Shown: one piece after another, positions 1-64,000 of the stretch
Position numbering within the stretch: position 1 is the stretch's first letter
How the letters are laid out: every line of letters starts with the position of its first letter
Assembly (NCBI GenBank): GCA_916048095.2
Contig: OU696595.1
Coordinates: forward strand, 6,541,832 to 6,605,831
Source of the DNA: Sacculina carcini
Lineage: Eukaryota; Arthropoda; Thecostraca; Sacculinidae
Length of the DNA: 64,000 nt
Direction: 5' to 3'
Notes under the pieces: generated by a model
What the model was told of the DNA's origin: nothing
The model's input: only the letters and a program-made list of their open reading frames with translations
Database searches by the model: none
Made by a program: the position numbers and the translations under genes

Positions 1-22
1 TTGAGGCACACTTAGTTAACAC
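1..22 (+). repeat. F-D landmark pair (first of about 64)
   Basis: TTGAGGCACAC followed by TTAGTTAACAC. I find F units starting at 1, 760, 1189, 2080, 3851, 5644, 6788, 7635, 8064, 8955, 10341, 10649, 11298, 11441, 12607, 12948, 13091, 15841, 16391, 17051, 18822, 21319, 21693, 22617, 23167, 23827, 25598, 28095, 28469, 32275, 34772, 35146, 39073, 40107, 40723, 41680, 41977, 42461, 42604, 43033, 43924, 44848, 46036, 46333, 47598, 47895, 48555, 48698, 49864, 50964, 52185, 55023, 57058, 57663, 57806, 58950, 59258, 59929, 60072, 60996, 61645, 61788, 62448 and 63977. D is replaced by B after 2080, 8955, 12607, 43924, 44848 and 49864. Confidence 0.9.
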
Positions 23-582
23 TTAGGGCACACTTAGGTAACACTTAGGGCATACTTAGGTAACACTTAGGTAACACTTAGGTAACACTTAGGTAACACT
101 TAGGTAACACTTAGGTAACACTTAGGTAACACTTAGGGCACACTTAGTTAACACTTAGGGCACACTTAGGTAACACTTAGGTAACACTTAGGGCACACTT
201 AGGTAACACTTAGGGCACACTTAGGTAACACTTATGTAACACTTAGGTAACATTTATGTAACACTTAGGTAACACTTAGGGCACACTTAGGTAACACTTA
301 GGGCACACTTAGGTAACACTTAGGGCACACTTAGGTAACACTTAGGGCACACTTAGGTAACACTTAGGGCACACTTAGGTAACACTTAGGTAACACTTAG
401 GTAACACTTAGGTAACACTTAGGTAACACTTATGTAACACTTAGGTAACATTTATGTAACACTTAGGTAACACTTAGGTAACACTTAGGTAACACTTAGG
501 TAACACTTAGGGCACACTTAGGTAACACTTAGGTAACACTTAGGGCACACTTAGGTAACACTTAGGGCACACTTAGGTAACA

Positions 583-3500
583 CTTATGTAACACTTAGGT
601 AACATTTATGTAACACTTAGGTAACACTTAGGGCATACTTAGGTAACACTTAGGTAACACTTAGGGCACACTTAGGCAACACTTAGGGCACACTTAGGTA
701 ACACTTAGGGCACACTTAGGTAACACTTAGGGCACACTTAGGGTACACTTAGGTAACACTTGAGGCACACTTAGTTAACACTTAGGGCACACTTAGGGCA
801 CACTTAGGGCATACTTAGGTAACACTTAGGTAACACTTAGGTAACACTTAGGTAACACTTAGGTAACACTTAGGGTACACTTAGTTAACACTTAGGGCAC
901 ACTTAGGTAACACTCAGGTAACACTTAGGGCACACTTAGGGCACACTTAGGGCACACTTAGGTAACACTTGGGTTACACTTAGGTAACACTTAGGGTACA
1001 CTTAGGTAACACTTAGGTAACACTTAGGGCACACTTAGGTAACACTTAGGGCACACTTAGGGCACACTTAGGTAACACTTAGGGCACACTTAGGAAACAC
1101 TTAGGTAACACTTAGGTAACACTTAGGGCACACTTAGGTAACACTTAGGTAACACTTAGGTAACACTTAGGGTACACTTAGGTAACACTTGAGGCACACT
1201 TAGTTAACACTTAGGGCACACTTAGGTAACACTTAGGGCATACTTAGGTAACACTTAGGTAACACTTAGGTAACACTTAGGGCACACTTAGGTAACACTT
1301 AGGGCACACTTAGGTAAAACTTAGGGAACACTTAGGTAACACTTAGGGCACACTTAGGGCATACTTAGGTAACACTTAGGTAACACTTAGGGCACACTTA
1401 GGTAACACTTAGGGCACACTTAGGTAACACTTAGGTAACACTTAGGGCACACTTAGGTAACACTTAGGGCACACTTAGGTAACACTTAGGTAACACTTAG
1501 GGCACACTTAGGTAACACTTAGGTAACACTTAGGGCACACTTAGGTAACACTTAGGTAACACTTAGGTAACACTTAGGGTACACTTAGGTAACACTTAGG
1601 GCACACTTAGGTAACACTTAGGTAACACTTAGGGCACACTTAGGTAACACTTAGGGCACACTTAGGTAACACTTATGTAACACTTAGGTAACATTTATGT
1701 AACACTTAGGTGACACTTAGGGCACACTTAGGTAACACTTAGGGCACACTTAGGTAACACTTAGGGCACACTTAGGTAACACTTAGGGCACACTTAGGTA
1801 ACACTTAGGGCACACTTAGGTAACACTTAGGTAACACTTAGGGCACACTTAGGTAACACTTAGGTAACACTTAGGGCACACTTAGGTAACACTTAGGGCA
1901 CACTTAGGTAACACTTATGTAACACTTAGGTAACATTTATGTAACACTTAGGTAACACTTAGGGCACACTTAGGTAACACTTAGGGCACACTTAGGTAAC
2001 ACTTAGGGCACACTTAGGTAACACTTAGGGCACACTTAGGTAACACTTAGGGCACACTTAGGTAACACTTAGGTAACACTTGAGGCACACTTAGGGCACA
2101 CTTAGGTAACACTTAGGGCATACTTAGGTAACACTTAGGAAACACTTAGGTAACACTTAGGTAACACTTAGGTAACACTTAGGTAACACTTAGGTAACAC
2201 TTAGGGTACACTTAGTTAACACTTCGGGCACACTTAGGTAACACTTAGGTAACACTTAGGTAACACTTAGGGCACACTTAGGGCATACTTAGGTAACACT
2301 TAGGTAACACTTAGGGCACACTTAGGTAACACTTAGGGCACACTTAGGTAACACTTAGGTAACACTTAGGGCACACTTAGGTAACACTTAGGGCACACTT
2401 AGGTAACACTTAGGTAACACTTAGGGCACACTTAGGTAACACTTAGGTAACACTTAGGGCACACTTAGGTAACACTTAGGTAACACTTAGGTAACACTTA
2501 GGGTACACTTAGTTAACACTTAGGGCACACTTAGGTAACACTTAGGTAACACTTAGGGCACACTTAGGTAACACTTAGGGCACACTTAGGTAACACTTAT
2601 GTAACACTTAGGTAACATTTATGTAACACTTAGGTGACACTTAGGGCACACTTAGGTAACACTTAGGGCACACTTAGGTAACACTTAGGGCACACTTAGG
2701 TAACACTTAGGGCACACTTAGGTAACACTTAGGGCACACTTAGGTAACACTTAGGTAACACTTAGGGCACACTTAGGTAACACTTAGGTAACACTTAGGG
2801 CACACTTAGGTAACACTTAGGGCACACTTAGGTAACACTTATGTAACACTTAGGTAACATTTATGTAACACTTAGGTAACACTTAGGGCACACTTAGGTA
2901 ACACTTAGGGCACACTTAGGTAACACTTAGGTAACACTTAGGTAACACTTAGGGCACACTTAGGTAACACTTAGGTAACACTTAGGGCACACTTAGGTAA
3001 CACTTAGGTAACACTTAGGGCACACTTAGGTAACACTTAGGTAACACTTAGGTAACACTTAGGTAACACTTAGGGCACACTTAGGTAACACTTAGGTAAC
3101 ACTTAGGTAACATTTAGGTAACACTTAGGTAACACTTAGGGCACACTTAGGTAACACTTAGGTAACACTTAGGGCACACTTAGGTAACACTTAGGTAACA
3201 CTTAGGGTACACTTAGTTAACACTTAGGGCACACTTAGGTAACACTTAGGTAACACTTAGGGCACACTTAGGTAACACTTAGGGCACACTTAGGTAACAC
3301 TTAGGTAAAACTTAGGGAACACTTAGCTAACACTTAGGGCACACTTAGGGCACACTTAGGTAACACTTAGGTAACACTTAGGGCACACTTAGGTAACACT
3401 TAGGGCACACTTAGGTAACACTTAGGTAACACTTAGGGCACACTTAGGTAACACTTAGGGCACACTTAGGTAACACTTAGGTAACACTTAGGGCACACTT

Positions 3501-4060
3501 AGGTAACACTTAGGTAACACTTAGGGCACACTTAGGTAACACTTAGGTAACACTTAGGTAACACTTAGGGTACACTTAGTTAACACTTAGGGCACACTTA
3601 GGTAACACTTAGGTAACACTTAGGGCACACTTAGGTAACACTTAGGGCACACTTAGGTAACACTTATGTAACACTTAGGTAACATTTATGTAACACTTAG
3701 GTGACACTTAGGGCACACTTAGGTAACACTTAGGGCACACTTAGGTAACACTTAGGGCACACTTAGGTAACACTTAGGGCACACTTAGGTAACACTTAGG
3801 GCACACTTAGGTAACACTTAGGGCACACTTAGGTAACACTTAGGTAACACTTGAGGCACACTTAGTTAACACTTAGGGCACACTTAGGTAACACTTAGGG
3901 CATACTTAGGTAACACTTAGGTAACACTTAGGTAACACTTAGGTAACACTTAGGTAACACTTAGGTAACACTTAGGTAACACTTAGGGTACACTTAGTTA
4001 ACACTTAGGGCACACTTAGGTAACACTTAGGTAACACTTAGGGCACACTTAGGTAACACT
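583..4060 (+). repeat. Super-repeat segment P, copy 1
   Basis: Landmarks here recur at a fixed distance of 6,875 bp (625 units) in copy 2 up to about base 3455: N 672, F 760, 1189 and 2080, Z 913, the I unit with AAAAC at 1316, K 1712 and 2636, the GGAAAC unit at 2138, O 2223, and Q with GCT at 3326. The same landmarks recur in copy 3 at 41,844 bp, and after a 341-bp length difference at 42,185 bp, to about base 4060. Ends are approximate. Confidence 0.85.
672..979 (+). repeat. 28-unit N...R block, copy 1 of 9
   Basis: A 308-bp block that starts with N (TTAGGCAACAC), carries F at +88 and Z (CTCAGG) at +241, then three consecutive B units, and ends with R (TTGGGTTACAC) at +297. All nine copies found have exactly these spacings, with no unit gained or lost, unlike surrounding cassettes. 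It is confined to the two flank domains. Confidence 0.9.
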
Positions 4061-4150
4061 TAGGGCACACTTAGGTAACACTTATGTAACACTTAGGTAA
4101 CATTTATGTAACACTTAGGTAACACTTAGGGCACACTTAGGTAACACTTA
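2300..4150 (+). repeat. 1,793-bp HOR, copy 1
   Basis: Landmarks recur exactly 1,793 bp (163 units) later: K 2636 to 4429 and 3703 to 5496, Q 3326 to 5119, F 3851 to 5644, the E unit GGG 2501 to 4294, and the G unit 4081 to 5874. Inside the period the K units are unevenly spaced by 1,067 and 726 bp, so the HOR has an asymmetric internal order rather than two equal halves. Confidence 0.8.
3851..4136 (+). repeat. Representative F-D cassette
   Basis: A clean example of the mid-scale cassette that recurs across the window. Unit order is F, D, B, A, C, then seven A, then E, D, B, A, A, B, A, B, A, then G (4082), H, G, A, B. Elsewhere the A-run between C and E varies, commonly 5-8 units, and the stretch after G-H-G is usually an A-B alternation of varying length. 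The order C, A-run, E, D is maintained in most cassettes, so the rare units act as ordered markers rather than random mutations. Confidence 0.85.
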
Positions 4151-5943
4151 GGTAACACTTAGGGCACACTTAGGTAACACTTAGGGCACACTTAGGTAAC
4201 ACTTAGGTAACACTTAGGGCACACTTAGGTAACACTTAGGTAACACTTAGGGCACACTTAGGTAACACTTAGGTAACACTTAGGTAACACTTAGGGTACA
4301 CTTAGTTAACACTTAGGGCACACTTAGGTAACACTTAGGTAACACTTAGGGCACACTTAGGTAACACTTAGGGCACACTTAGGTAACACTTATGTAACAC
4401 TTAGGTAACATTTATGTAACACTTAGGTGACACTTAGGGCACACTTAGGTAACACTTAGGGCACACTTAGGTAACACTTAGGGCACACTTAGGTAACACT
4501 TAGGGCACACTTAGGTAACACTTAGGGCACACTTAGGTAACACTTAGGTAACACTTAGGGCACACTTAGGTAACACTTAGGTAACACTTAGGGCACACTT
4601 AGGTAACACTTAGGGCACACTTAGGTAACACTTATGTAACACTTAGGTAACATTTATGTAACACTTAGGTAACACTTAGGGCACACTTAGGTAACACTTA
4701 GGGCACACTTAGGTAACACTTAGGTAACACTTAGGTAACACTTAGGGCACACTTAGGTAACACTTAGGTAACACTTAGGGCACACTTAGGTAACACTTAG
4801 GTAACACTTAGGGCACACTTAGGTAACACTTAGGTAACACTTAGGTAACACTTAGGTAACACTTAGGGCACACTTAGGTAACACTTAGGTAACACTTAGG
4901 TAACATTTAGGTAACACTTAGGTAACACTTAGGGCACACTTAGGTAACACTTAGGTAACACTTAGGGCACACTTAGGTAACACTTAGGTAACACTTAGGG
5001 TACACTTAGTTAACACTTAGGGCACACTTAGGTAACACTTAGGTAACACTTAGGGCACACTTAGGTAACACTTAGGGCACACTTAGGTAACACTTAGGTA
5101 AAACTTAGGGAACACTTAGCTAACACTTAGGGCACACTTAGGGCATACTTAGGTAACACTTAGGTAACACTTAGGGCACACTTAGGTAACACTTAGGGCA
5201 CACTTAGGTAACACTTAGGTAACACTTAGGGCACACTTAGGTAACACTTAGGGCACACTTAGGTAACACTTAGGTAACACTTAGGGCACACTTAGGTAAC
5301 ACTTAGGTAACACTTAGGGCACACTTAGGTAACACTTAGGTAACACTTAGGTAACACTTAGGGTACACTTAGTTAACACTTAGGGCACACTTAGGTAACA
5401 CTTAGGTAACACTTAGGGCACACTTAGGTAACACTTAGGGCACACTTAGGTAACACTTATGTAACACTTAGGTAACATTTATGTAACACTTAGGTGACAC
5501 TTAGGGCACACTTAGGTAACACTTAGGGCACACTTAGGTAACACTTAGGGCACACTTAGGTAACACTTAGGGCACACTTAGGTAACACTTAGGGCACACT
5601 TAGGTAACACTTAGGGCACACTTAGGTAACACTTAGGTAACACTTGAGGCACACTTAGTTAACACTTAGGGCACACTTAGGTAACACTTAGGGCATACTT
5701 AGGTAACACTTAGGTAACACTTAGGTAACACTTAGGTAACACTTAGGTAACACTTAGGTAACACTTAGGTAACACTTAGGGTACACTTAGTTAACACTTA
5801 GGGCACACTTAGGTAACACTTAGGTAACACTTAGGGCACACTTAGGTAACACTTAGGGCACACTTAGGTAACACTTATGTAACACTTAGGTAACATTTAT
5901 GTAACACTTAGGTAACACTTAGGGCACACTTAGGTAACACTTA
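4093..5943 (+). repeat. 1,793-bp HOR, copy 2
   Basis: Second tandem copy, ending about 5945 where A-B order diverges from copy 1. It contains the second Q unit (GCT at 5119), K 4429 and 5496, and F 5644. The region from Q through F also matches 45511-46036 at an offset of 40,392 bp, so this HOR is shared with the right flank. Confidence 0.8.
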
Positions 5944-7457
5944 GGGCACACTTAGGTAACACTTAGGGCACACTTAGGTAACACTTAGGGCACACTTAGG
6001 TAACACTTAGGGCACACTTAGGTAACACTTAGGTAACACTTAGGTAACACTTAGGTAACACTTAGGTAACACTTATGTAACACTTAGGTAACATTTATGT
6101 AACACTTAGGTAACACTTAGGTAACACTTAGGTAACACTTAGGTAACACTTAGGGCACACTTAGGTAACACTTAGGTAACACTTAGGGCACACTTAGGTA
6201 ACACTTAGGGCACACTTAGGTAACACTTATGTAACACTTAGGTAACATTTATGTAACACTTAGGTAACACTTAGGGCATTCTTAGGTAACACTTAGGTAA
6301 CACTTAGGTAACACTTAGGTAACACTTAGGTAACACTTAGGTAACACTTAGGTAACACTTAGGGTACACTTAGTTAACACTTCGGGCACACTTAGGTAAC
6401 ACTTAGGTAACACTTAGGGCACACTTAGGGCATACTTAGGTAACACTTAGGTAACACTTAGGGCACACTTAGGTAACACTTAGGGCACACTTAGGTAACA
6501 CTTAGGTAACACTTAGGTAACACTTAGGGCACACTTAGGTAACACTTAGGTAACACTTAGGGCACACTTAGGTAACACTTAGGGCACACTTAGGTAACAC
6601 TTATGTAACACTTAGGTAACATTTATGTAACACTTAGGTGACACTTAGGGCACACTTAGGTAACACTTAGGGCACACTTAGGTAACACTTAGGGCACACT
6701 TAGGTAACACTTAGGGCACACTTAGGTAACACTTAGGGCACACTTAGGTAACACTTAGGGCACACTTAGGTAACACTTAGGTAACACTTGAGGCACACTT
6801 AGTTAACACTTAGGGCACACTTAGGTAACACTTAGGGCATACTTAGGTAACACTTAGGTAACACTTAGGTAACACTTAGGTAACACTTAGGTAACACTTA
6901 GGTAACACTTAGGTAACACTTAGGGTACACTTAGTTAACACTTAGGGCACACTTAGGTAACACTTAGGTAACACTTAGGGCACACTTAGGTAACACTTAG
7001 GGCACACTTAGGTAACACTTATGTAACACTTAGGTAACATTTATGTAACACTTAGGTAACACTTAGGGCACACTTAGGTAACACTTAGGGCACACTTAGG
7101 TAACACTTAGGGCACACTTAGGTAACACTTAGGGCACACTTAGGTAACACTTAGGGCACACTTAGGTAACACTTAGGTAACACTTAGGTAACACTTAGGT
7201 AACACTTAGGTAACACTTATGTAACACTTAGGTAACATTTATGTAACACTTAGGTAACACTTAGGTAACACTTAGGTAACACTTAGGTAACACTTAGGGC
7301 ACACTTAGGTAACACTTAGGTAACACTTAGGGCACACTTAGGTAACACTTAGGGCACACTTAGGTAACACTTATGTAACACTTAGGTAACACTTAGGTAA
7401 CACTTAGGTAACACTTAGGTAACACTTATGTAACACTTAGGTAACATTTATGTAACA

Positions 7458-10330
7458 CTTAGGTAACACTTAGGTAACATTTATGTAACACTTAGGTAAC
7501 ACTTAGGGCATTCTTAGGTAACACTTAGGTAACACTTAGGGCACACTTAGGCAACACTTAGGGCACACTTAGGTAACACTTAGGGCACACTTAGGTAACA
7601 CTTAGGGCACACTTAGGGTACACTTAGGTAACACTTGAGGCACACTTAGTTAACACTTAGGGCACACTTAGGGCACACTTAGGGCATACTTAGGTAACAC
7701 TTAGGTAACACTTAGGTAACACTTAGGTAACACTTAGGTAACACTTAGGGTACACTTAGTTAACACTTAGGGCACACTTAGGTAACACTCAGGTAACACT
7801 TAGGGCACACTTAGGGCACACTTAGGGCACACTTAGGTAACACTTGGGTTACACTTAGGTAACACTTAGGGTACACTTAGGTAACACTTAGGTAACACTT
7901 AGGGCACACTTAGGTAACACTTAGGGCACACTTAGGGCACACTTAGGTAACACTTAGGGCACACTTAGGAAACACTTAGGTAACACTTAGGTAACACTTA
8001 GGGCACACTTAGGTAACACTTAGGTAACACTTAGGTAACACTTAGGGTACACTTAGGTAACACTTGAGGCACACTTAGTTAACACTTAGGGCACACTTAG
8101 GTAACACTTAGGGCATACTTAGGTAACACTTAGGTAACACTTAGGTAACACTTAGGGCACACTTAGGTAACACTTAGGGCACACTTAGGTAAAACTTAGG
8201 GAACACTTAGGTAACACTTAGGGCACACTTAGGGCATACTTAGGTAACACTTAGGTAACACTTAGGGCACACTTAGGTAACACTTAGGGCACACTTAGGT
8301 AACACTTAGGTAACACTTAGGGCACACTTAGGTAACACTTAGGGCACACTTAGGTAACACTTAGGTAACACTTAGGGCACACTTAGGTAACACTTAGGTA
8401 ACACTTAGGGCACACTTAGGTAACACTTAGGTAACACTTAGGTAACACTTAGGGTACACTTAGTTAACACTTAGGGCACACTTAGGTAACACTTAGGTAA
8501 CACTTAGGGCACACTTAGGTAACACTTAGGGCACACTTAGGTAACACTTATGTAACACTTAGGTAACATTTATGTAACACTTAGGTGACACTTAGGGCAC
8601 ACTTAGGTAACACTTAGGGCACACTTAGGTAACACTTAGGGCACACTTAGGTAACACTTAGGGCACACTTAGGTAACACTTAGGGCACACTTAGGTAACA
8701 CTTAGGTAACACTTAGGGCACACTTAGGTAACACTTAGGTAACACTTAGGGCACACTTAGGTAACACTTAGGGCACACTTAGGTAACACTTATGTAACAC
8801 TTAGGTAACATTTATGTAACACTTAGGTAACACTTAGGGCACACTTAGGTAACACTTAGGGCACACTTAGGTAACACTTAGGGCACACTTAGGTAACACT
8901 TAGGGCACACTTAGGTAACACTTAGGGCACACTTAGGTAACACTTAGGTAACACTTGAGGCACACTTAGGGCACACTTAGGTAACACTTAGGGCATACTT
9001 AGGTAACACTTAGGAAACACTTAGGTAACACTTAGGTAACACTTAGGTAACACTTAGGTAACACTTAGGTAACACTTAGGGTACACTTAGTTAACACTTC
9101 GGGCACACTTAGGTAACACTTAGGTAACACTTAGGTAACACTTAGGGCACACTTAGGGCATACTTAGGTAACACTTAGGTAACACTTAGGGCACACTTAG
9201 GTAACACTTAGGGCACACTTAGGTAACACTTAGGTAACACTTAGGGCACACTTAGGTAACACTTAGGGCACACTTAGGTAACACTTAGGTAACACTTAGG
9301 GCACACTTAGGTAACACTTAGGTAACACTTAGGGCACACTTAGGTAACACTTAGGTAACACTTAGGTAACACTTAGGGTACACTTAGTTAACACTTAGGG
9401 CACACTTAGGTAACACTTAGGTAACACTTAGGGCACACTTAGGTAACACTTAGGGCACACTTAGGTAACACTTATGTAACACTTAGGTAACATTTATGTA
9501 ACACTTAGGTGACACTTAGGGCACACTTAGGTAACACTTAGGGCACACTTAGGTAACACTTAGGGCACACTTAGGTAACACTTAGGGCACACTTAGGTAA
9601 CACTTAGGGCACACTTAGGTAACACTTAGGTAACACTTAGGGCACACTTAGGTAACACTTAGGTAACACTTAGGGCACACTTAGGTAACACTTAGGGCAC
9701 ACTTAGGTAACACTTATGTAACACTTAGGTAACATTTATGTAACACTTAGGTAACACTTAGGGCACACTTAGGTAACACTTAGGGCACACTTAGGTAACA
9801 CTTAGGTAACACTTAGGTAACACTTAGGGCACACTTAGGTAACACTTAGGTAACACTTAGGGCACACTTAGGTAACACTTAGGTAACACTTAGGGCACAC
9901 TTAGGTAACACTTAGGTAACACTTAGGTAACACTTAGGTAACACTTAGGGCACACTTAGGTAACACTTAGGTAACACTTAGGTAACATTTAGGTAACACT
10001 TAGGTAACACTTAGGGCACACTTAGGTAACACTTAGGTAACACTTAGGGCACACTTAGGTAACACTTAGGTAACACTTAGGGTACACTTAGTTAACACTT
10101 AGGGCACACTTAGGTAACACTTAGGTAACACTTAGGGCACACTTAGGTAACACTTAGGGCACACTTAGGTAACACTTAGGTAAAACTTAGGGAACACTTA
10201 GCTAACACTTAGGGCACACTTAGGGCATACTTAGGTAACACTTAGGTAACACTTAGGGCACACTTAGGTAACACTTAGGGCACACTTAGGTAACACTTAG
10301 GTAACACTTAGGGCACACTTAGGTAACACT
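7458..10330 (+). repeat. Super-repeat segment P, copy 2
   Basis: All landmarks sit exactly 6,875 bp after those of copy 1: N 7547, F 7635, 8064 and 8955, Z 7788, AAAAC 8191, K 8587 and 9511, O 9098, Q 10201. Upstream, the variant unit TTAGGGCATTC near 7515 replaces the C unit seen at the matching place in copy 1. Homology ends just before the F unit at 10341, where copy 1 has no F. Confidence 0.85.
7547..7854 (+). repeat. N...R block, copy 2
   Basis: N 7547, F 7635, Z (CTCAGG) 7788, R 7844. It lies 6,875 bp from copy 1, inside segment P copy 2. Confidence 0.9.
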
Positions 10331-11110
10331 TAGGTAACACTTGAGGCACACTTAGTTAACACTTAGGGCACACTTAGGGCACACTTAGGTAACACTTAGG
10401 GCATACTTAGGTAACACTTAGGTAACACTTAGGTAACACTTAGGTAACACTTAGGTAACACTTAGGTAACACTTAGGTAACACTTAGGGTACACTTAGTT
10501 AACACTTCGGGCACACTTAGGGCACACTTAGGGCACACTTAGGTAACACTTAGGGCACACTTAGGTAACACTTAGGGCACACTTAGGTAACACTTAGGGC
10601 ACACTTAGGTAACACTTAGGGCACACTTAGGTAACACTTAGGTAACACTTGAGGCACACTTAGTTAACACTTAGGTAACACTTAGGTAACACTTAGGTAA
10701 CACTTAGGTAACACTTAGGTAACACTTAGGGCACACTTAGGGCACACTTAGGTAACACTTAGGTAACACTTAGGGCACACTTAGGTAACACTTAGGTAAC
10801 ACTTAGGCCACACTTAGGTAACACTTAGGTAACACTTAGGTAACACTTAGGTAACACTTAGGTAACACTTAGGGCACACTTAGGTAACACTTAGGTAACA
10901 CTTAGGTAACACTTAGGTAACACTTAGGGCACACTTAGGCAACACTTAGGTAACACTTAGGTAACACTTAGGGCACACTTAGGTAACACTTAGGGCACAC
11001 TTAGGGCACACTTAGGTAACACTTAGGGCACACTTAGGTAACACTTAGGTAACACTTAGGGCACACCTAGGCAACACTTAGGTAACACTTAGGGCACACT
11101 TAGGTAAAAC

Positions 11111-11165
11111 TTAGGGCACACTTAGGGCACACTTAGGGCACACTTAGGGCACACTTAGGGCACAC
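11111..11165 (+). repeat. B-run of five units
   Basis: Five consecutive TTAGGGCACAC units directly after an I unit, where I is normally followed by J. Homologous runs have five units at 12761-12815, four at 42307-42350 and six at 48357-48422, so this is a whole-unit length-variable site. Confidence 0.85.
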
Positions 11166-11352
11166 TTAGGTAACACTTAGGGCACACTTAGGTAACACTT
11201 AGGGCACACTTAGGTAACACTTAGGGCACACTTAGGTAACACTTAGGGCACACTTAGGTAACACTTAGGGCACACTTAGGTAACACTTAGGTAACACTTG
11301 AGGCACACTTAGTTAACACTTAGGTAACACTTAGGTAACACTTAGGGCACAC

Positions 11353-11660
11353 TTAGGCAACACTTAGGGCACACTTAGGTAACACTTAGGGCACACTTAG
11401 GTAACACTTAGGGCACACTTAGGGTACACTTAGGTAACACTTGAGGCACACTTAGTTAACACTTAGGGCACACTTAGGGCACACTTAGGGCATACTTAGG
11501 TAACACTTAGGTAACACTTAGGTAACACTTGGGTAACACTTAGGTAACACTTAGGGTACACTTAGTTAACACTTAGGGCACACTTAGGTAACACTCAGGT
11601 AACACTTAGGGCACACTTAGGGCACACTTAGGGCACACTTAGGTAACACTTGGGTTACAC
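11353..11660 (+). repeat. N...R block, copy 3 (X-bearing subtype)
   Basis: N 11353, F 11441, Z 11594, R 11650. It differs from copies 1 and 2 by an X unit (TTGGGTAACAC, start 11529) in the A-run and by a TTAGGTACCAC unit shortly after R. Both changes are shared with the copies at 13003 and 48610, which defines a subtype. Confidence 0.9.
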
Positions 11661-12760
11661 TTAGGTAACACTTAGGGTACACTTAGGTACCACTTAGGTA
11701 ACACTTAGGTAACACTTAGGACACACTTAGGTAACACTTAGGTAACACTTAGGGTACACTTAGTTAACACTTAGGGCACACTTATGTAACACTTAGGTAA
11801 CACTTAGGGCACACTTAGGTAACACTTAGGGCACACTTAGGTAAAACTTAGGGAACACTTAGGTAACACTTAGGGCACACTTAGGGCATACTTAGGTAAC
11901 ACTTAGGTAACACTTAGGGCACACTTAGGTAACACTTAGGGCACACTTAGGTAACACTTAGGTAACACTTAGGGCACACTTAGGTAACACTTAGGGCACA
12001 CTTAGGTAACACTTAGGTAACACTTAGGGCACACTTAGGTAACACTTAGGTAACACTTAGGGCACACTTAGGTAACACTTAGGTAACACTTAGGTAACAC
12101 TTAGGGTACACTTAGTTAACACTTAGGGCACACTTAGGTAACACTTAGGTAACACTTAGGGCACACTTAGGTAACACTTAGGGCACACTTAGGTAACACT
12201 TATGTAACACTTAGGTAACATTTATGTAACACTTAGGTGACACTTAGGGCACACTTAGGTAACACTTAGGGCACACTTAGGTAACACTTAGGGCACACTT
12301 AGGTAACACTTAGGGCACACTTAGGTAACACTTAGGGCACACTTAGGTAACACTTAGGTAACACTTAGGGCACACTTAGGTAACACTTAGGTAACACTTA
12401 GGGCACACTTAGGTAACACTTAGGGCACACTTAGGTAACACTTATGTAACACTTAGGTAACATTTATGTAACACTTAGGTAACACTTAGGGCACACTTAG
12501 GTAACACTTAGGGCACACTTAGGTAACACTTAGGGCACACTTAGGTAACACTTAGGGCACACTTAGGTAACACTTAGGGCACACTTAGGTAACACTTAGG
12601 TAACACTTGAGGCACACTTAGGGCACACTTAGGTAACACTTAGGGCATACTTAGGTAACACTTAGGTAACACTTAGGTAACACTTAGGTAACACTTAGGT
12701 AACACTTAGGGCACACCTAGGCAACACTTAGGTAACACTTAGGGCACACTTAGGTAAAAC

Positions 12761-42440: not shown

Positions 42441-42493
42441 AGGTAACACTTAGGTAACACTTGAGGCACACTTAGTTAACACTTAGGTAACAC

Positions 42494-48356: not shown

Positions 48357-48422
48357 TTAGGGCACACTTAGGGCACACTTAGGGCACACTTAGGGCACAC
48401 TTAGGGCACACTTAGGGCACAC
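48357..48422 (+). repeat. B-run of six units
   Basis: Longest of the four homologous B-runs. It accounts for the change in offset from 37,246 to 37,257 bp between segment S copies. Confidence 0.85.
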
Positions 48423-48609
48423 TTAGGTAACACTTAGGGCACACTTAGGTAACACTTAGGGCACACTTAGGTAACACTTAGGGCACACTTAGGTAACACT
48501 TAGGGCACACTTAGGTAACACTTAGGGCACACTTAGGTAACACTTAGGTAACACTTGAGGCACACTTAGTTAACACTTAGGTAACACTTAGGTAACACTT
48601 AGGGCACAC

Positions 48610-48917
48610 TTAGGCAACACTTAGGGCACACTTAGGTAACACTTAGGGCACACTTAGGTAACACTTAGGGCACACTTAGGGTACACTTAGGTAACACTTG
48701 AGGCACACTTAGTTAACACTTAGGGCACACTTAGGGCACACTTAGGGCATACTTAGGTAACACTTAGGTAACACTTAGGTAACACTTGGGTAACACTTAG
48801 GTAACACTTAGGGTACACTTAGTTAACACTTAGGGCACACTTAGGTAACACTCAGGTAACACTTAGGGCACACTTAGGGCACACTTAGGGCACACTTAGG
48901 TAACACTTGGGTTACAC
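48610..48917 (+). repeat. N...R block, copy 6 (X-bearing subtype)
   Basis: N 48610, F 48698, Z 48851, R 48907. It shares the X unit and the TTAGGTACCAC unit with copies 3 and 4, consistent with the 37,257-bp duplication of segment S. Confidence 0.9.
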
Positions 48918-50413: not shown

Positions 50414-51634
50414 TTAGGTAAAACTTAGGGAACACTTAGGTAACACTTAGGGCACACTTAGGGCATACTTAGGTAACACTTAGGTAACACTTAGGGCACA
50501 CTTAGGTAACACTTAGGGCACACTTAGGTAACACTTAGGTAACACTTAGGGCACACTTAGGTAACACTTAGGGCACACTTAGGTAACACTTAGGTAACAC
50601 TTAGGGCACACTTAGGTAACACTTAGGTAACACTTAGGGCACACTTAGGTAACACTTAGGTAACACTTAGGTAACACTTAGGGTACACTTAGTTAACACT
50701 TAGGGCACACTTAGGTAACACTTAGGTAACACTTAGGGCACACTTAGGTAACACTTAGGGCACACTTAGGTAACACTTATGTAACACTTAGGTAACATTT
50801 ATGTAACACTTAGGTGACACTTAGGGCACACTTAGGTAACACTTAGGGCACACTTAGGTAACACTTGGGTAACACTTAGGTAACACTTAGGTAACACTTA
50901 GGTAACACTTAGGGTACACTTAGTTAACACTTAGGGCACACTTAGGTAACACTTAGGTAACACTTGAGGCACACTTAGTTAACACTTAGGGCACACTTAG
51001 GTAACACTTAGGGCATACTTAGGTAACACTTAGGTAACACTTAGGTAACACTTAGGTAACACTTAGGTAACACTTAGGTAACACTTAGGTAACACTTAGG
51101 GTACACTTAGTTAACACTTAGGGCACACTTAGGTAACACTTAGGTAACACTTAGGGCACACTTAGGTAACACTTAGGGCACACTTAGGTAACACTTATGT
51201 AACACTTAGGTAACACTTAGGGCACACTTAGGTAACACTTAGGGCACACTTAGGTAACACTTAGGTAACACTTAGGTAACACTTAGGGCACACTTAGGTA
51301 ACACTTAGGTAACACTTAGGGCACACTTAGGTAACACTTAGGTAACACTTAGGGCACACTTAGGTAACACTTAGGTAACACTTAGGTAACACTTAGGTAA
51401 CACTTAGGGCACACTTAGGTAACACTTAGGTAACACTTAGGTAACATTTAGGTAACACTTAGGTAACACTTAGGGCACACTTAGGTAACACTTAGGTAAC
51501 ACTTAGGGCACACTTAGGTAACACTTAGGTAACACTTAGGGTACACTTAGTTAACACTTAGGGCACACTTAGGTAACACTTAGGTAACACTTAGGGCACA
51601 CTTAGGTAACACTTAGGGCACACTTAGGTAACAC
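50414..51634 (+). repeat. 1,221-bp HOR, copy 1
   Basis: A 111-unit HOR that starts with I-J. It carries K (50816), X (50865), F-D (50964), C, an A-run, E-D, G, and an H unit followed by A near 51445. The next I units are exactly 1,221 bp apart (50414, 51635, 52856). Confidence 0.88.
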
Positions 51635-52855
51635 TTAGGTAAAACTTAGGGAACACTTAGGTAACACTTAGGGCACACTTAGGGCATACTTAGGTAACAC
51701 TTAGGTAACACTTAGGGCACACTTAGGTAACACTTAGGGCACACTTAGGTAACACTTAGGTAACACTTAGGGCACACTTAGGTAACACTTAGGGCACACT
51801 TAGGTAACACTTAGGTAACACTTAGGGCACACTTAGGTAACACTTAGGTAACACTTAGGGCACACTTAGGTAACACTTAGGTAACACTTAGGTAACACTT
51901 AGGGTACACTTAGTTAACACTTAGGGCACACTTAGGTAACACTTAGGTAACACTTAGGGCACACTTAGGTAACACTTAGGGCACACTTAGGTAACACTTA
52001 TGTAACACTTAGGTAACATTTATGTAACACTTAGGTGACACTTAGGGCACACTTAGGTAACACTTAGGGCACACTTAGGTAACACTTGGGTAACACTTAG
52101 GTAACACTTAGGTAACACTTAGGTAACACTTAGGGTACACTTAGTTAACACTTAGGGCACACTTAGGTAACACTTAGGTAACACTTGAGGCACACTTAGT
52201 TAACACTTAGGGCACACTTAGGTAACACTTAGGGCACACTTAGGTAACACTTAGGTAACACTTAGGTAACACTTAGGTAACACTTAGGTAACACTTAGGT
52301 AACACTTAGGTAACACTTAGGGTACACTTAGTTAACACTTAGGGCACACTTAGGTAACACTTAGGTAACACTTAGGGCACACTTAGGTAACACTTAGGGC
52401 ACACTTAGGTAACACTTATGTAACACTTAGGTAACACTTAGGGCACACTTAGGTAACACTTAGGGCACACTTAGGTAACACTTAGGTAACACTTAGGTAA
52501 CACTTAGGGCACACTTAGGTAACACTTAGGTAACACTTAGGGCACACTTAGGTAACACTTAGGTAACACTTAGGGCACACTTAGGTAACACTTAGGTAAC
52601 ACTTAGGTAACACTTAGGTAACACTTAGGGCACACTTAGGTAACACTTAGGTAACACTTAGGTAACATTTAGGTAACACTTAGGTAACACTTAGGGCACA
52701 CTTAGGTAACACTTAGGTAACACTTAGGGCACACTTAGGTAACACTTAGGTAACACTTAGGGTACACTTAGTTAACACTTAGGGCACACTTAGGTAACAC
52801 TTAGGTAACACTTAGGGCACACTTAGGTAACACTTAGGGCACACTTAGGTAACAC
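51635..52855 (+). repeat. 1,221-bp HOR, copy 2
   Basis: Same unit order as copy 1: K 52037, X 52086, F 52185, H-A near 52666. The clear difference I see is B in place of C after F-D (near 52230). Confidence 0.88.
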
Positions 52856-54160
52856 TTAGGTAAAACTTAGGGAACACTTAGGTAACACTTAGGGCACACT
52901 TAGGGCATACTTAGGTAACACTTAGGTAACACTTAGGGCACACTTAGGTAACACTTAGGGCACACTTAGGTAACACTTAGGTAACACTTAGGGCACACTT
53001 AGGTAACACTTAGGGCACACTTAGGTAACACTTAGGTAACACTTAGGGCACACTTAGGTAACACTTAGGTAACACTTAGGGCACACTTAGGTAACACTTA
53101 GGTAACACTTAGGTAACACTTAGGGTACACTTAGTTAACACTTAGGGCACACTTAGGTAACACTTAGGTAACACTTAGGGCACACTTAGGTAACACTTAG
53201 GGCACACTTAGGTAACACTTATGTAACACTTAGGTAACATTTATGTAACACTTAGGTGACACTTAGGGCACACTTAGGTAACACTTAGGGCACACTTAGG
53301 TAACACTTAGGGCACACTTAGGTAACACTTAGGGCACACTTAGGTAACACTTAGGGCACACTTAGGTAACACTTAGGTAACACTCGAGGCACACTTAGTT
53401 AACACTTAGGGCACACTTAGGTAACACTTAGGGCATACTTAGGTAACACTTAGGTAACACTTAGGTAACACTTAGGTAACACTTAGGTAACACTTAGGTA
53501 ACACTTAGGTAACACTTAGGGTACACTTAGTTAACACTTAGGGCACACTTAGGTAACACTTAGGTAACACTTAGGGCACACTTAGGTAACACTTAGGGCA
53601 CACTTAGGTAACACTTATGTAACACTTAGGTAACATTTATGTAACACTTAGGTAACACTTAGGGCACACTTAGGTAACACTTAGGGCACACTTAGGTAAC
53701 ACTTAGGGCACACTTAGGTAACACTTAGGGCACACTTAGGTAACACTTAGGGCACACTTAGGTAACACTTAGGTAACACTTAGGTAACACTTAGGTAACA
53801 CTTAGGTAACACTTAGGTAACACTTATGTAACACTTAGGTAACATTTATGTAACACTTAGGTAACACTTAGGTAACACTTAGGTAACACTTAGGTAACAC
53901 TTAGGGCACACTTAGGTAACACTTAGGGCACACTTAGGGCACACTTAGGTAACACTTAGGGCACACTTAGGTAACACTTAGGGTACACTTAGGTAACACT
54001 TAGGGTACACTTAGATAACACTTAGGTAACACTTAGGGCACGCTTAGGTAACACTTAGGGCACACTTAGGTAACACTTAGGGCACACTTAGGTAACACTT
54101 AGGGCACACTTAGGTAACACTTAGGTAACACTTAGGTAACACTTAGGTAACACTTAGGGC
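52750..54160 (+). repeat. ~2,440-bp-spaced duplication, copy 1 (CTCGAG variant)
   Basis: E-D near 52760, I 52856, K 53258, the TCGAGGCACAC unit at 53384 and the CACGC unit (CGC at 54041) recur 2,442 bp later, or 2,431 bp at the last marker. TCGAGG is an F unit with one extra change, creating a CTCGAG hexamer found at only two places in the window. Confidence 0.83.
52856..53300 (+). repeat. 1,221-bp HOR, truncated copy 3
   Basis: I 52856 and K 53258 keep the 1,221-bp spacing. The X unit is then missing and the next F-type unit comes two units early, at 53384. Confidence 0.82.
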
Positions 54161-55189
54161 ACACTTAGGTAACACTTAGGGCACACTTAGGTAACACTTA
54201 GGTAACACTTAGGGCACACTTAGGTAACACTTAGGTAACACTTAGGGCACACTTAGGTAACACTTAGGTAACACTTAGGGCACACTTAGGTAACACTTAG
54301 GTAACACTTAGGTAACACTTAGGTAACACTTAGGGCACACTTAGGTAACACTTAGGTAACACTTAGGTAACATTTAGGTAACACTTAGTTAACACTTAGG
54401 GCACACTTAGGTAACACTTAGGTAACACTTAGGGCACACTTAGGTAACACTTAGGGCACACTTAGGTAACACTTAGGTAAAACTTAGGGAACACTTAGGT
54501 AACACTTAGGGCACACTTAGGGCATACTTAGGTAACACTTAGGTAACACTTAGGGCACACTTAGGTAACACTTAGGGCACACTTAGGTAACACTTAGGTA
54601 ACACTTAGGGCACACTTAGGTAACACTTAGGGCACACTTAGGTAACACTTAGGTAACACTTAGGGCACACTTAGGTAACACTTAGGTAACACTTAGGGCA
54701 CACTTAGGTAACACTTAGGTAACACTTAGGTAACACTTAGGGTACACTTAGTTAACACTTAGGGCACACTTAGGTAACACTTAGGTAACACTTAGGGCAC
54801 ACTTAGGTAACACTTAGGGCACACTTAGGTAACACTTATGTAACACTTAGGTAACATTTATGTAACACTTAGGTGACACTTAGGGCACACTTAGGTAACA
54901 CTTAGGGCACACTTAGGTAACACTTAGGTAACACTTAGGTAACACTTAGGTAACACTTAGGTAACACTTAGGGTACACTTAGTTAACACTTAGGGCACAC
55001 TTAGGTAACACTTAGGTAACACTTGAGGCACACTTAGTTAACACTTAGGGCACACTTAGGTAACACTTAGGGCATACTTAGGTAACACTTAGGTAACACT
55101 TAGGTAACACTTAGGTAACACTTAGGTAACACTTAGGGCACACTTAGGTAACACTTAGGTAACACTTAGGGCACACTTAGGTAACACTT

Positions 55190-56590
55190 AGGTAACACTT
55201 AGGGTACACTTAGTTAACACTTAGGGCACACTTAGGTAACACTTAGGTAACACTTAGGGCACACTTAGGTAACACTTAGGGCACACTTAGGTAACACTTA
55301 GGTAAAACTTAGGGAACACTTAGGTAACACTTAGGGCACACTTAGGGCATACTTAGGTAACACTTAGGTAACACTTAGGGCACACTTAGGTAACACTTAG
55401 GGCACACTTAGGTAACACTTAGGTAACACTTAGGGCACACTTAGGTAACACTTAGGGCACACTTAGGTAACACTTAGGTAACACTTAGGGCACACTTAGG
55501 TAACACTTAGGTAACACTTAGGGCACACTTAGGTAACACTTAGGTAACACTTAGGTAACACTTAGGGTACACTTAGTTAACACTTAGGGCACACTTAGGT
55601 AACACTTAGGTAACACTTAGGGCACACTTAGGTAACACTTAGGGCACACTTAGGTAACACTTATGTAACACTTAGGTAACATTTATGTAACACTTAGGTG
55701 ACACTTAGGGCACACTTAGGTAACACTTAGGGCACACTTAGGTAACACTTAGGGCACACTTAGGTAACACTTAGGGCACACTTAGGTAACACTTAGGGCA
55801 CACTTAGGTAACACTTAGGTAACACTCGAGGCACACTTAGTTAACACTTAGGGCACACTTAGGTAACACTTAGGGCATACTTAGGTAACACTTAGGTAAC
55901 ACTTAGGTAACACTTAGGTAACACTTAGGTAACACTTAGGTAACACTTAGGTAACACTTAGGGTACACTTAGTTAACACTTAGGGCACACTTAGGTAACA
56001 CTTAGGTAACACTTAGGGCACACTTAGGTAACACTTAGGGCACACTTAGGTAACACTTATGTAACACTTAGGTAACATTTATGTAACACTTAGGTAACAC
56101 TTAGGGCACACTTAGGTAACACTTAGGGCACACTTAGGTAACACTTAGGGCACACTTAGGTAACACTTAGGGCACACTTAGGTAACACTTAGGGCACACT
56201 TAGGTAACACTTAGGTAACACTTAGGTAACACTTAGGTAACACTTAGGTAACACTTATGTAACACTTAGGTAACATTTATGTAACACTTAGGTAACACTT
56301 AGGTAACACTTAGGTAACACTTAGGTAACACTTAGGGCACACTTAGGTAACACTTAGGGCACACTTAGGGCACACTTAGGTAACACTTAGGGCACACTTA
56401 GGTAACACTTAGGGTACACTTAGGTAACACTTAGGGTACACTTAGATAACACTTAGGTAACACTTAGGGCACGCTTAGGTAACACTTAGGGCACACTTAG
56501 GTAACACTTAGGGCACACTTAGGTAACACTTAGGGCACACTTAGGTAACACTTAGGTAACACTTAGGTAACACTTAGGTAACACTTAGGG
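55190..56590 (+). repeat. ~2,440-bp-spaced duplication, copy 2 (CTCGAG variant)
   Basis: K 55700, TCGAGG 55826, CGC 56472. One unit is missing relative to copy 1 between TCGAGG and CGC (646 versus 657 bp), while an extra A unit follows. Confidence 0.83.
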
Positions 56591-57369
56591 CACACTTAGG
56601 TAACACTTAGGGCACACTTAGGTAACACTTAGGTAACACTTAGGGCACACTTAGGTAACACTTAGGGCACACTTAGGTAACACTTAGGTAACACTTAGGG
56701 CACACTTAGGTAACACTTAGGTAACACTTAGGGCACACTTAGGTAACACTTAGGTAACACTTAGGTAACACTTAGGGTACACTTAGTTAACACTTAGGGC
56801 ACACTTAGGTAACACTTAGGTAACACTTAGGGCACACTTAGGTAACACTTAGGGCACACTTAGGTAACACTTATGTAACACTTAGGTAACATTTATGTAA
56901 CACTTAGGTGACACTTAGGGCACACTTAGGTAACACTTAGGGCACACTTAGGTAACACTTAGGGCACACTTAGGTAACACTTAGGGCACACTTAGGTAAC
57001 ACTTAGGGCACACTTAGGTAACACTTAGGGCACACTTAGGTAACACTTAGGTAACACTTGAGGCACACTTAGTTAACACTTAGGGCACACTTAGGTAACA
57101 CTTAGGGCATACTTAGGTAACACTTAGGTAACACTTAGGTAACACTTAGGTAACACTTAGGTAACACTTAGGTAACACTTAGGTAACACTTAGGGTACAC
57201 TTAGTTAACACTTAGGGCACACTTAGGTAACACTTAGGTAACACTTAGGGCACACTTAGGTAACACTTAGGGCACACTTAGGTAACACTTATGTAACACT
57301 TAGGTAACATTTATGTAACACTTAGGTAACACTTAGGGCACACTTAGGTAACACTTAGGGCACACTTAG

Positions 57370-58260
57370 GTAACACTTAGGTAACACTTAGGTAACACTT
57401 AGGTAACACTTAGGTAACACTTATGTAACACTTAGGTAACATTTATGTAACACTTAGGTAACACTTAGGTAACACTTAGGTAACACTTAGGTAACACTTA
57501 GGGCACACTTAGGTAACACTTAGGTAACACTTAGGGCACACTTAGGTAACACTTAGGGCACACTTAGGTAACACTTATGTAACACTTAGGGCACACTTAG
57601 GTAACACTTAGGGCACACTTAGGTAACACTTAGGGCACACTTAGGTAACACTTAGGTAACACTTGAGGCACACTTAGTTAACACTTAGGTAACACTTAGG
57701 TAACACTTAGGGCACACTTAGGCAACACTTAGGGCACACTTAGGTAACACTTAGGGCACACTTAGGTAACACTTAGGGCACACTTAGGGTACACTTAGGT
57801 AACACTTGAGGCACACTTAGTTAACACTTAGGGCACACTTAGGGCACACTTAGGGCATACTTAGGTAACACTTAGGTAACACTTAGGTAACACTTAGGTA
57901 ACACTTAGGTAACACTTAGGGTACACTTAGTTAACACTTAGGGCACACTTAGGTAACACTCAGGTAACACTTAGGGCACACTTAGGGCACACTTAGGGCA
58001 CACTTAGGTAACACTTGGGTTACACTTAGGTAACACTTAGGGTACACTTAGGTAACACTTAGGTAACACTTAGGTAACACTTAGGACACACTTAGGTAAC
58101 ACTTAGGTAACACTTAGGTAACACTTAGGTAACACTTAGGGCACACTTAGGGCACACTTAGGTAACACTTAGGTATCACTTAGGGCACACTTAGGTAACA
58201 CTTAGGGCACACTTAGGTAACACTTAGGTTACACTTAGGTAACACTTAGGTAACACTTAG
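57370..58260 (+). repeat. Right-flank HOR with N...R block, copy 1
   Basis: G 57421, F 57663 and 57806, Z, R, L 58084 and M 58174 recur 2,266 bp later. A single TTAGGTTACAC unit occurs near 58227. Confidence 0.83.
57718..58025 (+). repeat. N...R block, copy 7
   Basis: N 57718, F 57806, Z 57959, R 58015. First of three copies in the local HOR at 57.4-62.2 kb. Confidence 0.9.
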
Positions 58261-59635
58261 GGTACACTTAGTTAACACTTAGGGCACACTTATGTAACAC
58301 TTAGGTAACACTTAGGGCACACTTAGGTAACACTTAGGGCACACTTAGGTAAAACTTAGGGAACACTTAGGTAACACTTAGGGCACACTTAGGGCATACT
58401 TAGGTAACACTTAGGTAACACTTAGGGCACACTTAGGTAACACTTAGGGCACACTTAGGTAACACTTAGGTAACACTTAGGTAACACTTAGGTAACACTT
58501 AGGGCACACTTAGGTAACACTTAGGGCACACTTAGGTAACACTTAGGTAACACTTAGGGCACACTTAGGTAACACTTAGGGCACACTTAGGTAACACTTA
58601 GGTAACACTTAGGGCACACTTAGGTAACACTTAGGTAACACTTAGGGCACACTTAGGTAACACTTAGGTAACACTTAGGTAACACTTAGGGTACACTTAG
58701 TTAACACTTAGGGCACACTTAGGTAACACTTAGGTAACACTTAGGGCACACTTAGGTAACACTTAGGGCACACTTAGGTAACACTTATGTAACACTTAGG
58801 TAACATTTATGTAACACTTAGGTGACACTTAGGGCACACTTAGGTAACACTTAGGGCACACTTAGGTAACACTTAGGGCACACTTAGGTAACACTTAGGG
58901 CACACTTAGGTAACACTTAGGGCACACTTAGGTAACACTTAGGTAACACTTGAGGCACACTTAGTTAACACTTAGGGCACACTTAGGTAACACTTAGGGC
59001 ATACTTAGGTAACACTTAGGTAACACTTAGGTAACACTTAGGTAACACTTAGGTAACACTTAGGTAACACTTAGGTAACACTTAGGGTACACTTAGTTAA
59101 CACTTAGGGCACACTTAGGTAACACTTAGGTAACACTTAGGGCACACTTAGGTAACACTTAGGGCACACTTAGGTAACACTTATGTAACACTTAGGTAAC
59201 ATTTATGTAACACTTAGGTAACACTTAGGGCACACTTAGGTAACACTTAGGTAACACTTGAGGCACACTTAGTTAACACTTAGGGCACACTTAGGTAACA
59301 CTTAGGGCATACTTAGGTAACACTTAGGTAACACTTAGGTAACACTTAGGTAACACTTAGGTAACACTTAGGTAACACTTAGGTAACACTTAGGGTACAC
59401 TTAGTTAACACTTAGGGCACACTTAGGTAACACTTAGGTAACACTTAGGGCACACTTAGGTAACACTTAGGGCACACTTAGGTAACACTTATGTAACACT
59501 TAGGTAACATTTATGTAACACTTAGGTAACACTTAGGGCACACTTAGGTAACACTTAGGGCACACTTAGGTAACACTTAGGGCACACTTAGGTAACACTT
59601 AGGGCACACTTAGGTAACACTTAGGGCACACTTAG

Positions 59636-60525
59636 GTAACACTTAGGTAACACTTAGGTAACACTTAGGTAACACTTAGGTAACACTTATGTAACACTTA
59701 GGTAACATTTATGTAACACTTAGGTAACACTTAGGTAACACTTAGGTAACACTTAGGTAACACTTAGGGCACACTTAGGTAACACTTAGGTAACACTTAG
59801 GGCACACTTAGGTAACACTTAGGGCACACTTAGGTAACACTTATGTAACACTTAGGGCACACTTAGGTAACACTTAGGGCACACTTAGGTAACACTTAGG
59901 GCACACTTAGGTAACACTTAGGTAACACTTGAGGCACACTTAGTTAACACTTAGGTAACACTTAGGTAACACTTAGGGCACACTTAGGCAACACTTAGGG
60001 CACACTTAGGTAACACTTAGGGCACACTTAGGTAACACTTAGGGCACACTTAGGGTACACTTAGGTAACACTTGAGGCACACTTAGTTAACACTTAGGGC
60101 ACACTTAGGGCACACTTAGGGCATACTTAGGTAACACTTAGGTAACACTTAGGTAACACTTAGGTAACACTTAGGTAACACTTAGGGTACACTTAGTTAA
60201 CACTTAGGGCACACTTAGGTAACACTCAGGTAACACTTAGGGCACACTTAGGGCACACTTAGGGCACACTTAGGTAACACTTGGGTTACACTTAGGTAAC
60301 ACTTAGGGTACACTTAGGTAACACTTAGGTAACACTTAGGTAACACTTAGGACACACTTAGGTAACACTTAGGTAACACTTAGGTAACACTTAGGTAACA
60401 CTTAGGGCACACTTAGGGCACACTTAGGTAACACTTAGGTATCACTTAGGGCACACTTAGGTAACACTTAGGGCACACTTAGGTAACACTTAGGTAACAC
60501 TTAGGTAACACTTAGGTAACACTTA
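59636..60525 (+). repeat. Right-flank HOR with N...R block, copy 2
   Basis: G 59687, F 59929 and 60072, L 60350, M 60440. It ends with B where copies 1 and 3 continue E-D, so copy 2 has a different right-hand junction. Confidence 0.83.
59984..60291 (+). repeat. N...R block, copy 8
   Basis: N 59984, F 60072, Z 60225, R 60281, exactly 2,266 bp (206 units) after copy 7. Confidence 0.9.
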
Positions 60526-61351
60526 GGGCACACTTAGGTAACACTTAGGGCACACTTAGGTAACACTTAGGTAACACTTAGGGCACACTTAGGTAACACT
60601 TAGGGCACACTTAGGTAACACTTAGGTAACACTTAGGGCACACTTAGGTAACACTTAGGTAACACTTAGGGCACACTTAGGTAACACTTAGGTAACACTT
60701 AGGTAACACTTAGGGTACACTTAGTTAACACTTAGGGCACACTTAGGTAACACTTAGGTAACACTTAGGGCACACTTAGGTAACACTTAGGGCACACTTA
60801 GGTAACACTTATGTAACACTTAGGTAACATTTATGTAACACTTAGGTGACACTTAGGGCACTCTTAGGTAACACTTAGGGCACACTTAGGTAACACTTAG
60901 GGCACACTTAGGTAACACTTAGGGCACACTTAGGTAACACTTAGGGCACACTTAGGTAACACTTAGGGCACACTTAGGTAACACTTAGGTAACACTTGAG
61001 GCACACTTAGTTAACACTTAGGGCACACTTAGGTAACACTTAGGGCATACTTAGGTAACACTTAGGTAACACTTAGGTAACACTTAGGTAACACTTAGGT
61101 AACACTTAGGTAACACTTAGGTAACACTTAGGGTACACTTAGTTAACACTTAGGGCACACTTAGGTAACACTTAGGTAACACTTAGGGCACACTTAGGTA
61201 ACACTTAGGGCACACTTAGGTAACACTTATGTAACACTTAGGTAACATTTATGTAACACTTAGGTAACACTTAGGGCACACTTAGGTAACACTTAGGGCA
61301 CACTTAGGTAACACTTAGGGCACACTTAGGTAACACTTAGGGCACACTTAG

Positions 61352-63200: not shown

Positions 63201-63489
63201 TAACACTTAGGTAACACTTAGGGTACACTTAGTTAACACTTAGGGCACACTTATGTAACACTTAGGTAACACTTTGGGCACACTTAGGTAACACTTAGGG
63301 CACACTTAGGTAAAACTTAGGGAACACTTAGGTAACACTTAGGGCACACTTAGGGCATACTTAGGTAACACTTAGGTAACACTTAGGGCACACTTAGGTA
63401 ACACTTAGGGCACACTTAGGTAACACTTAGGTAACACTTAGGGCACACTTAGGTAACACTTAGGGCACACTTAGGTAACACTTAGGTAA

Positions 63490-63610
63490 CACTTAGGTAA
63501 CACTTAGGGCACACTTAGGGCACACTTAGGTAACACTTGGGTTACACTTAGGTAACACTTAGGGTACACTTAGGTAACACTTAGGTAACACTTAGGTAAC
63601 ACTTAGGACA
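63490..63610 (+). repeat. Hybrid partial N...R block
   Basis: R occurs at 63537 followed by the usual E and L (GGAC at 63606) context. The upstream Z, F and N markers are missing; only two B units and an A-run precede R. This looks like a recombinant junction that joined the right half of an N...R block to ordinary cassette sequence. Confidence 0.7.
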
Positions 63611-64000
63611 CACTTAGGTAACACTTAGGTAACACTTAGGTAACACTTAGGGCACACTTAGGGCACACTTAGGTAACACTTAGGTATCACTTAGGGCACA
63701 CTTAGGTAACACTTAGGGCACACTTAGGTAACACTTAGGTAACACTTAGGTAACACTTAGGTAACACTTAGGGTACACTTAGTTAACACTTAGGGCACAC
63801 TTATGTAACACTTAGGTAACACTTAGGGCACACTTAGGTAACACTTAGGGCACACTTAGGTAAAACTTAGGGAACACTTAGGTAACACTTAGGGCACACT
63901 TAGGGCATACTTAGGTAACACTTAGGTAACACTTAGGGCACACTTAGGTAACACTTAGGGCACACTTAGGTAACACTTGAGGCACACTTAGTTAACACTT
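63600..64000 (+). repeat. ~1,530-bp-spaced duplication, copy 2 (cut by window end)
   Basis: L 63606, M 63685, F 63977. The window ends inside the D unit after this F, so the copy and the array very probably continue beyond base 64000. Confidence 0.78.

Follow-up and report, generated by a model that had tools for sequence, protein, structure and literature searches.

The window analysed here, a stretch of 64,000 nucleotides from Sacculina carcini (contig OU696595.1, positions 6,541,832 to 6,605,831), is occupied from end to end by head-to-tail copies of an 11-bp unit. Cut from its first base, it yields 5,818 complete 11-mers and two leftover bases, TT. An earlier note on this DNA, made from the letters alone, had described an unbroken 11-bp register over 64 kb, and the tiling bears this out, as all 5,818 units are in step and in a single orientation. 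The count of about 5,816 units given in that note needs a slight correction. The units fall into 40 kinds, of which TTAGGTAACAC (kind A; 3,098 copies) and TTAGGGCACAC (kind B; 1,536 copies) make up 80% of the array and serve as consensus; the 38 kinds counted besides these two exceed the roughly 30 kinds of substitution previously reckoned. Measured from the nearer consensus, 4,634 units carry no substitution, 1,087 carry one, 95 carry two and 2 carry three. No unit among the 5,818 lies more than three substitutions from both TTAGGTAACAC and TTAGGGCACAC, which is the count that had been proposed as a check of the register.

Base-level tests gave the same picture. All 64 copies of TTGAGGCACAC (landmark F), counted in any frame, start at remainder 1 on division by 11, including the nine F sites listed previously, each of which is indeed TTGAGGCACAC; the O, K, N and R landmarks of the earlier note are covered by the full tiling rather than looked up by name. 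The six commonest kinds, checked singly, likewise occur at remainder 1 only, and the reverse complements of these six were not found in the window. At every place in the window, the two in-register units spanned by an off-register 11-mer fit better than that 11-mer itself, and no word occurs in more than one register among 606 distinct 14-mers, 970 20-mers and 2,712 40-mers. Tandem Repeats Finder (TRF) reported a single array (8-64000; period 22 or 187) with 0% indels. Since no 14-, 20- or 40-mer is found in two registers, there is no pair of compensating frameshifts longer than one unit. The earlier note had named such pairs as what would refute its observation, and none exists beyond the scale of one unit. 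Their absence is less secure inside single units: TTGAGGCACAC and TTGGGTTACAC (10 copies) are explained at equal cost by two substitutions or by one insertion and one deletion, and either may thus contain a compensated insertion and deletion a few bases apart. Intermediates of 10 or 12 bp are absent from the window, as follows from its complete tiling into 11-mers. The longest stop-free stretch on either strand spans 21 codons, which leaves the array without coding capacity of any note. The features of the window are listed in Table 1, with strings of units written as one letter per kind.

Table 1. Features of the 64,000-nucleotide window (coordinates within the window)
Feature	Coordinates	Strand	Remarks
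Uninterrupted head-to-tail array of 11-bp units	1..64000	+	From tiling and TRF; no array edge inside the window
TTGAGGCACAC, first of 64 copies (landmark F)	1..11	+	Possible compensated insertion and deletion
Left stretch, marker CGCL	1673..12243	+	9 of 20 CGCL occurrences; limits are marker positions, not sharp edges
Middle stretch, marker ADADAAAK	13498..40975	+	21 of 21 ADADAAAK occurrences
Higher-order repeat copy 1	15379..22154	+	616 units, 6,776 bp; the phase at which the limits are set is the analyst's choice
Higher-order repeat copy 2	22155..28930	+	616 units; contains the longest exact copy
Higher-order repeat copy 3	28931..35607	+	607 units; several whole-unit gaps relative to copy 2
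Right stretch, marker CGCL again	43517..60852	+	11 of 20 CGCL occurrences

The order of the unit kinds revealed repeats in several layers. The unit string parses into 305 copied phrases, compared with 1,299 to 1,313 in three shuffles and 914 to 951 in three first-order Markov strings, and 118 duplicated blocks with a score of at least 50 together cover 5,522 of the 5,818 units. At the shortest scale, the match rate at a lag of 2 units (22 bp), which reflects the alternation of A and B, is 0.448 versus 0.358 expected. A middle layer is formed by blocks of about 80 to 250 units, and the top layer by repeats in near-tandem arrangement, 616 and 607 units long (6.7 to 6.8 kb), in the middle of the window; these two lags and a third, of 163 units, are near-tandem lags among the 45 of 118 duplicated blocks listed. 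At lag 616 a block of 589 units, and at lag 607 a block of 566 units, each have 6 units that do not match the copy one period further along. The longest exact copy extends over 342 units (3.8 kb; bases 22716-26477) and has its source 616 units upstream. Gapped comparison of copies 1 and 2 aligned 594 matching and 9 mismatching units with one internal gap of 13 units, whereas copies 2 and 3 share 509 matching units, with 20 mismatches and 10 whole-unit gaps. Short-unit satellite arrays are known to carry larger repeats of variants as well. The stretches delimited by CGCL and ADADAAAK are not pure domains, because a further marker, BCABABIJABFA (26 occurrences), lies mostly in the middle stretch and crosses its limits, with additional copies at 11771, 49028, 58279, 62261 and 63790.

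Changes in array length were analysed by a left-to-right copying model and by gapped comparisons of blocks. Both were run on whole units and could therefore return gaps and switches only in multiples of 11; this is legitimate because the base-level tests find no off-register word or fit. With switch penalties of 2, 3 and 4, the copying model required 130, 109 and 100 switches, respectively, and 92, 107 and 116 of its 140, 194 and 229 mismatched units differed from their template by a single base. Comparison of 20 CGCL blocks (90 units each) in all 190 pairs, which are not independent of one another, returned 779 whole-unit gaps, most commonly of 1 and 2 units. The array changes in length readily and always by whole units, a behaviour that homologous pairing of misaligned copies accounts for with no special factor required.

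Far fewer mutations are on display than the variants at first suggest. The window contains 1,283 bases that mismatch the consensus units, a figure we rejected as a number of independent mutations, since nearly all of them are copies made by block duplication. A minimum of 39 substitutions links the 40 kinds, whereas counting independent origins of the 38 nonconsensus kinds by their context, under four rules, gave 59, 79, 81 and 103, numbers that exchange can inflate. As the true number of mutations, 39 is probably too low and was likewise set aside in favour of the range. Variants affect all 11 unit positions, with 2 to 7 kinds at each (by count, without a formal test), so no base is strictly kept. 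Seven kinds are present in single copy, each one base away from another kind and, judged by eye, in familiar unit contexts. The longest single-base run measures 4 bases and runs of that length number 50, i.e., the unit is poor in slippage sites.

The window thus combines head-to-tail, near-identical units with a lack of coding capacity and with homogenised blocks and higher-order repeats, which are the marks of a satellite. We read it, with a probability of about 0.82, as a eukaryotic-type noncoding satellite array of an 11-bp unit that is maintained by homologous in-register exchange, the eukaryotic type being suggested by its size and organisation. It is an unusually clean array of a known kind, the short-unit satellite. 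Misaligned copies would pair with an offset of one or more whole units, and blocks ranging from one unit to several kilobases would be duplicated, deleted or overwritten by unequal sister exchange, gene conversion, or break-induced or template-switch copying. Because misalignment is by whole units, exchange would change the length in multiples of 11 bp and never lose the register in that way. Repeated copying of blocks would also mean that the 64 kb descend from a few template stretches, so that the independent point mutations now visible would number only some tens. In a unit with few slippage-prone runs, the lack of a surviving indel could then reflect chance, or else modest selection or repair against indels. 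We infer that a dedicated register-keeping factor is unnecessary, and treat the suggestion that something penalises loss of register as a possibility only. Small indels may nonetheless be rarer than expected, in addition to block copying.

How surprising the lack of indels is depends on the number of mutations and on the share of indels among them. The earlier note had offered in-register exchange as one of two possible agents that purge indels. As the mode of length change such exchange is well supported, but point indels are not removed by it alone. When duplication and deletion of in-register blocks were simulated under neutrality (two mutation rates, 20 runs per rate, one block-length law, exchange independent of local homology), an input indel share of 0.10 was retained as 0.094 and 0.096, and indel-free arrays arose in 3 of 20 runs at about 17 substitution kinds and in 1 of 20 at about 53. 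We therefore rejected the idea that exchange of this type necessarily purges indels, which the simulation keeps at about their mutational share. The probability of observing zero indels was computed for 39, 59, 81 and 103 events. With 39 events it amounts to 0.30 at an indel share of 3%, 0.14 at 5% and 0.039 at 8%, and with 81 events to 0.085 at 3%. The corresponding upper 95% limits on the share are 7.4% (39 events), 5.0% (59), 3.6% (81) and 2.9% (103). Zero indels are unremarkable if indels constitute up to about 3 to 7% of mutations, and surprising if they reach 10% or more; that they are possible at all stems mostly from the few independent mutations on display and the few slippage sites.

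The indel-free state is less easily accounted for if the organism has a high indel share. With 39 events the probability of zero indels drops to 0.011 at a share of 11% and 0.002 at 15%, and with 81 events it is 0.016 at 5%, 0.0012 at 8%, 0.00008 at 11% and <0.00001 at 15%. Shares of that size or larger are on record: the 180 indels and 1,463 single-nucleotide mutations of Daphnia obtusa correspond to a share of about 11% by our computation (PMC12926508), the rates quoted for two Chlamydomonas species to 26 to 32%, likewise computed here (PMC8383909), and in Schizosaccharomyces pombe indels are as numerous as substitutions, i.e., about half of all events (PMC4704713). Some purge of indels may therefore exist. 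It could take the form of rejection, or repair toward the in-register majority, of heteroduplexes with loops of 1 to 10 bases, whereby the array would filter indels and let substitutions pass. The lack of any indel beside 39 or more substitutions, and upper limits (2.9 to 7.4%) below the shares of Daphnia, Chlamydomonas and S. pombe, are in keeping with such a filter, which would be superimposed on in-register copying and so overlaps with our preferred explanation. However, slippage sites raise genome-wide shares, and most indels of S. pombe lie in low-complexity intergenic sequence (PMC4704713); the unit studied here, with no run beyond 4 bases, should have an indel share of its own below genome-wide figures. 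Shares also vary widely among species, the indel rate of Saccharomyces cerevisiae being 10- to 35-fold below that of S. pombe (PMC4704713), and at a share of 3%, 39 events would leave no indel in 30% of cases. We consider the filter a tentative possibility only, and would not bet on a modest real deficit of indels in the array at better than about one chance in three. Less likely again, and to our mind doubtful, is that a process tied to exchange or chromatin actively maintains the register, removing indels while tolerating dozens of substitutions; such a process may consist, for example, in rejection of looped heteroduplexes or in a factor that tracks the 11-bp spacing.

Three further explanations would account for the register in other ways. 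A protein or chromatin structure might depend on units spaced at 11 bp, roughly one helical turn each, with selection removing arrays that fall out of register. The closeness of 11 bp to one helical turn and the maintenance of the register across 64 kb would fit this proposal, but an exact 11-bp period drifts against 10.2 or 10.5 bp per turn within 13 to 21 units. On a uniform helix, to which this argument applies rather than to proteins that recognise single units independently, phase coherence at 10.2 bp per turn is 0.02 over 13 units (about the length of a nucleosome) and 0.17 over 21, at 10.5 bp per turn it is 0.48 and 0.00, respectively, and only at 11.0 bp per turn is it 1.00, by definition. 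Rotational phasing thus offers little reason for a unit of 11 bp to be kept, and the one-turn phasing invoked in the earlier note finds no support on a uniform helix. As variants occur at each of the 11 unit positions and whole-unit gaps are common, selection on spacing appears highly improbable. A perfect register could also have been produced by assembly or polishing that removed real indels, and highly repetitive arrays do invite consensus errors. Here, however, the survival of 40 kinds, 7 of which occur once and differ by one base from another kind, shows that the consensus has not been levelled toward the common unit, and runs of no more than 4 bases offer little substrate for run-length errors; we rate an artefact as very unlikely.

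Unit A starts with TTAGG, the telomere word of arthropods, and unit B with TTAGGG, that of vertebrates; the array is otherwise not telomere-like. A telomere synthesised by a telomerase with an 11-nucleotide template would explain both the unit length and these starts. Telomeric motifs of 11 bp such as TTAGGTCTGGG are described in Hymenoptera, two of the three motifs starting with TTAGG (PMC10632776). Unlike those motifs, the array has no G-rich strand (G+T 46%; GC skew 0.002) and displays strong kilobase higher-order repeats, in which variants keep a fixed order over periods of 616 and 607 units and in exact copies of up to 342 units. Errors of a template would not generate a fixed order of variants, and a telomerase origin is accordingly the least credible of the explanations considered.

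Human HSat1A, HSat2 and HSat3 form megabase arrays from units of 5 to 42 bp (PMC10199239), with which the present array shares a short unit and long head-to-tail arrangement; it differs in its count of zero off-register indels, a figure for this 64-kb window alone. According to Smith's model and later work, satellites evolve by unequal crossing-over and recurrent amplification (PMC8822648). Duplication and deletion of blocks by misaligned homologous exchange are common to that model and to this array, and our tests revealed no departure from it except perhaps in the share of point indels, a term ("indel") that does not occur in PMC8822648. Short units are said there to degenerate faster, which, in an array as clean as this one, suggests recent amplification. 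A tapeworm paper (PMC7653826) deals with a 179-bp unit and was of no help to the present question. No known satellite corresponding to the unit was recognised in the literature searched, which covered 9 of the 22 rotation and strand forms of TTAGGTAACAC and 3 of the 22 of TTAGGGCACAC and left subscription papers mostly outside its scope; string matches to unit forms were taken for chance, their titles and the beginnings of their abstracts pointing to unrelated subjects. Searches of the same literature for satellites of 11 bp brought up, by title, a fission yeast genome, an oat mitochondrial genome and a Neisseria study. No report linking register to the helical turn was found within the same literature.

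In sequence collections, one 27-base pattern each gave 0 exact matches among viral contigs and among contigs of prokaryote genomes. Bases 1-4000, searched by blastn with the low-complexity filter on, matched no plasmid and gave one weak phage match (68% identity over 4% of the query), to one phage present in two records. The matched record, Corynebacterium phage Darwin (NC_042086.1), carries about 30 tandem copies of the 15-bp CTAAGTTAGGTAACC (matches 72%, indels 7%) at 499-966, an interval that lies between annotated genes. We took this 15-bp array, with its TTAGGTAAC core, as unrelated. Within the pattern searches and those with bases 1-4000, relatives that would assign the array to prokaryotic, phage or plasmid repeats were not found.

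With long reads, satellite arrays can now be resolved to the single base, and separate counts of substitutions, whole-unit changes and off-register indels provide a clean test of whether exchange merely copies mutations or filters them too. An indel deficit, if true, would allow heteroduplex repair bias and neutral drift to be told apart in the evolution of satellites, and, were the register actively kept, the frequency with which an array is homogenised could be gauged from its indel purity. Should there be no real deficit, the window would illustrate well how, through block copying, 64 kb come to look far more constrained than their independent mutations warrant.

A minor feature concerns methylation sites. 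The window contains 16 CG sites, versus 2,728 expected from its base composition, and, on the + strand, 21 CHG sites. Both motifs are absent from the common units, so the array has nearly no symmetric methylation sites, a scarcity that is probably a consequence of the unit sequence.

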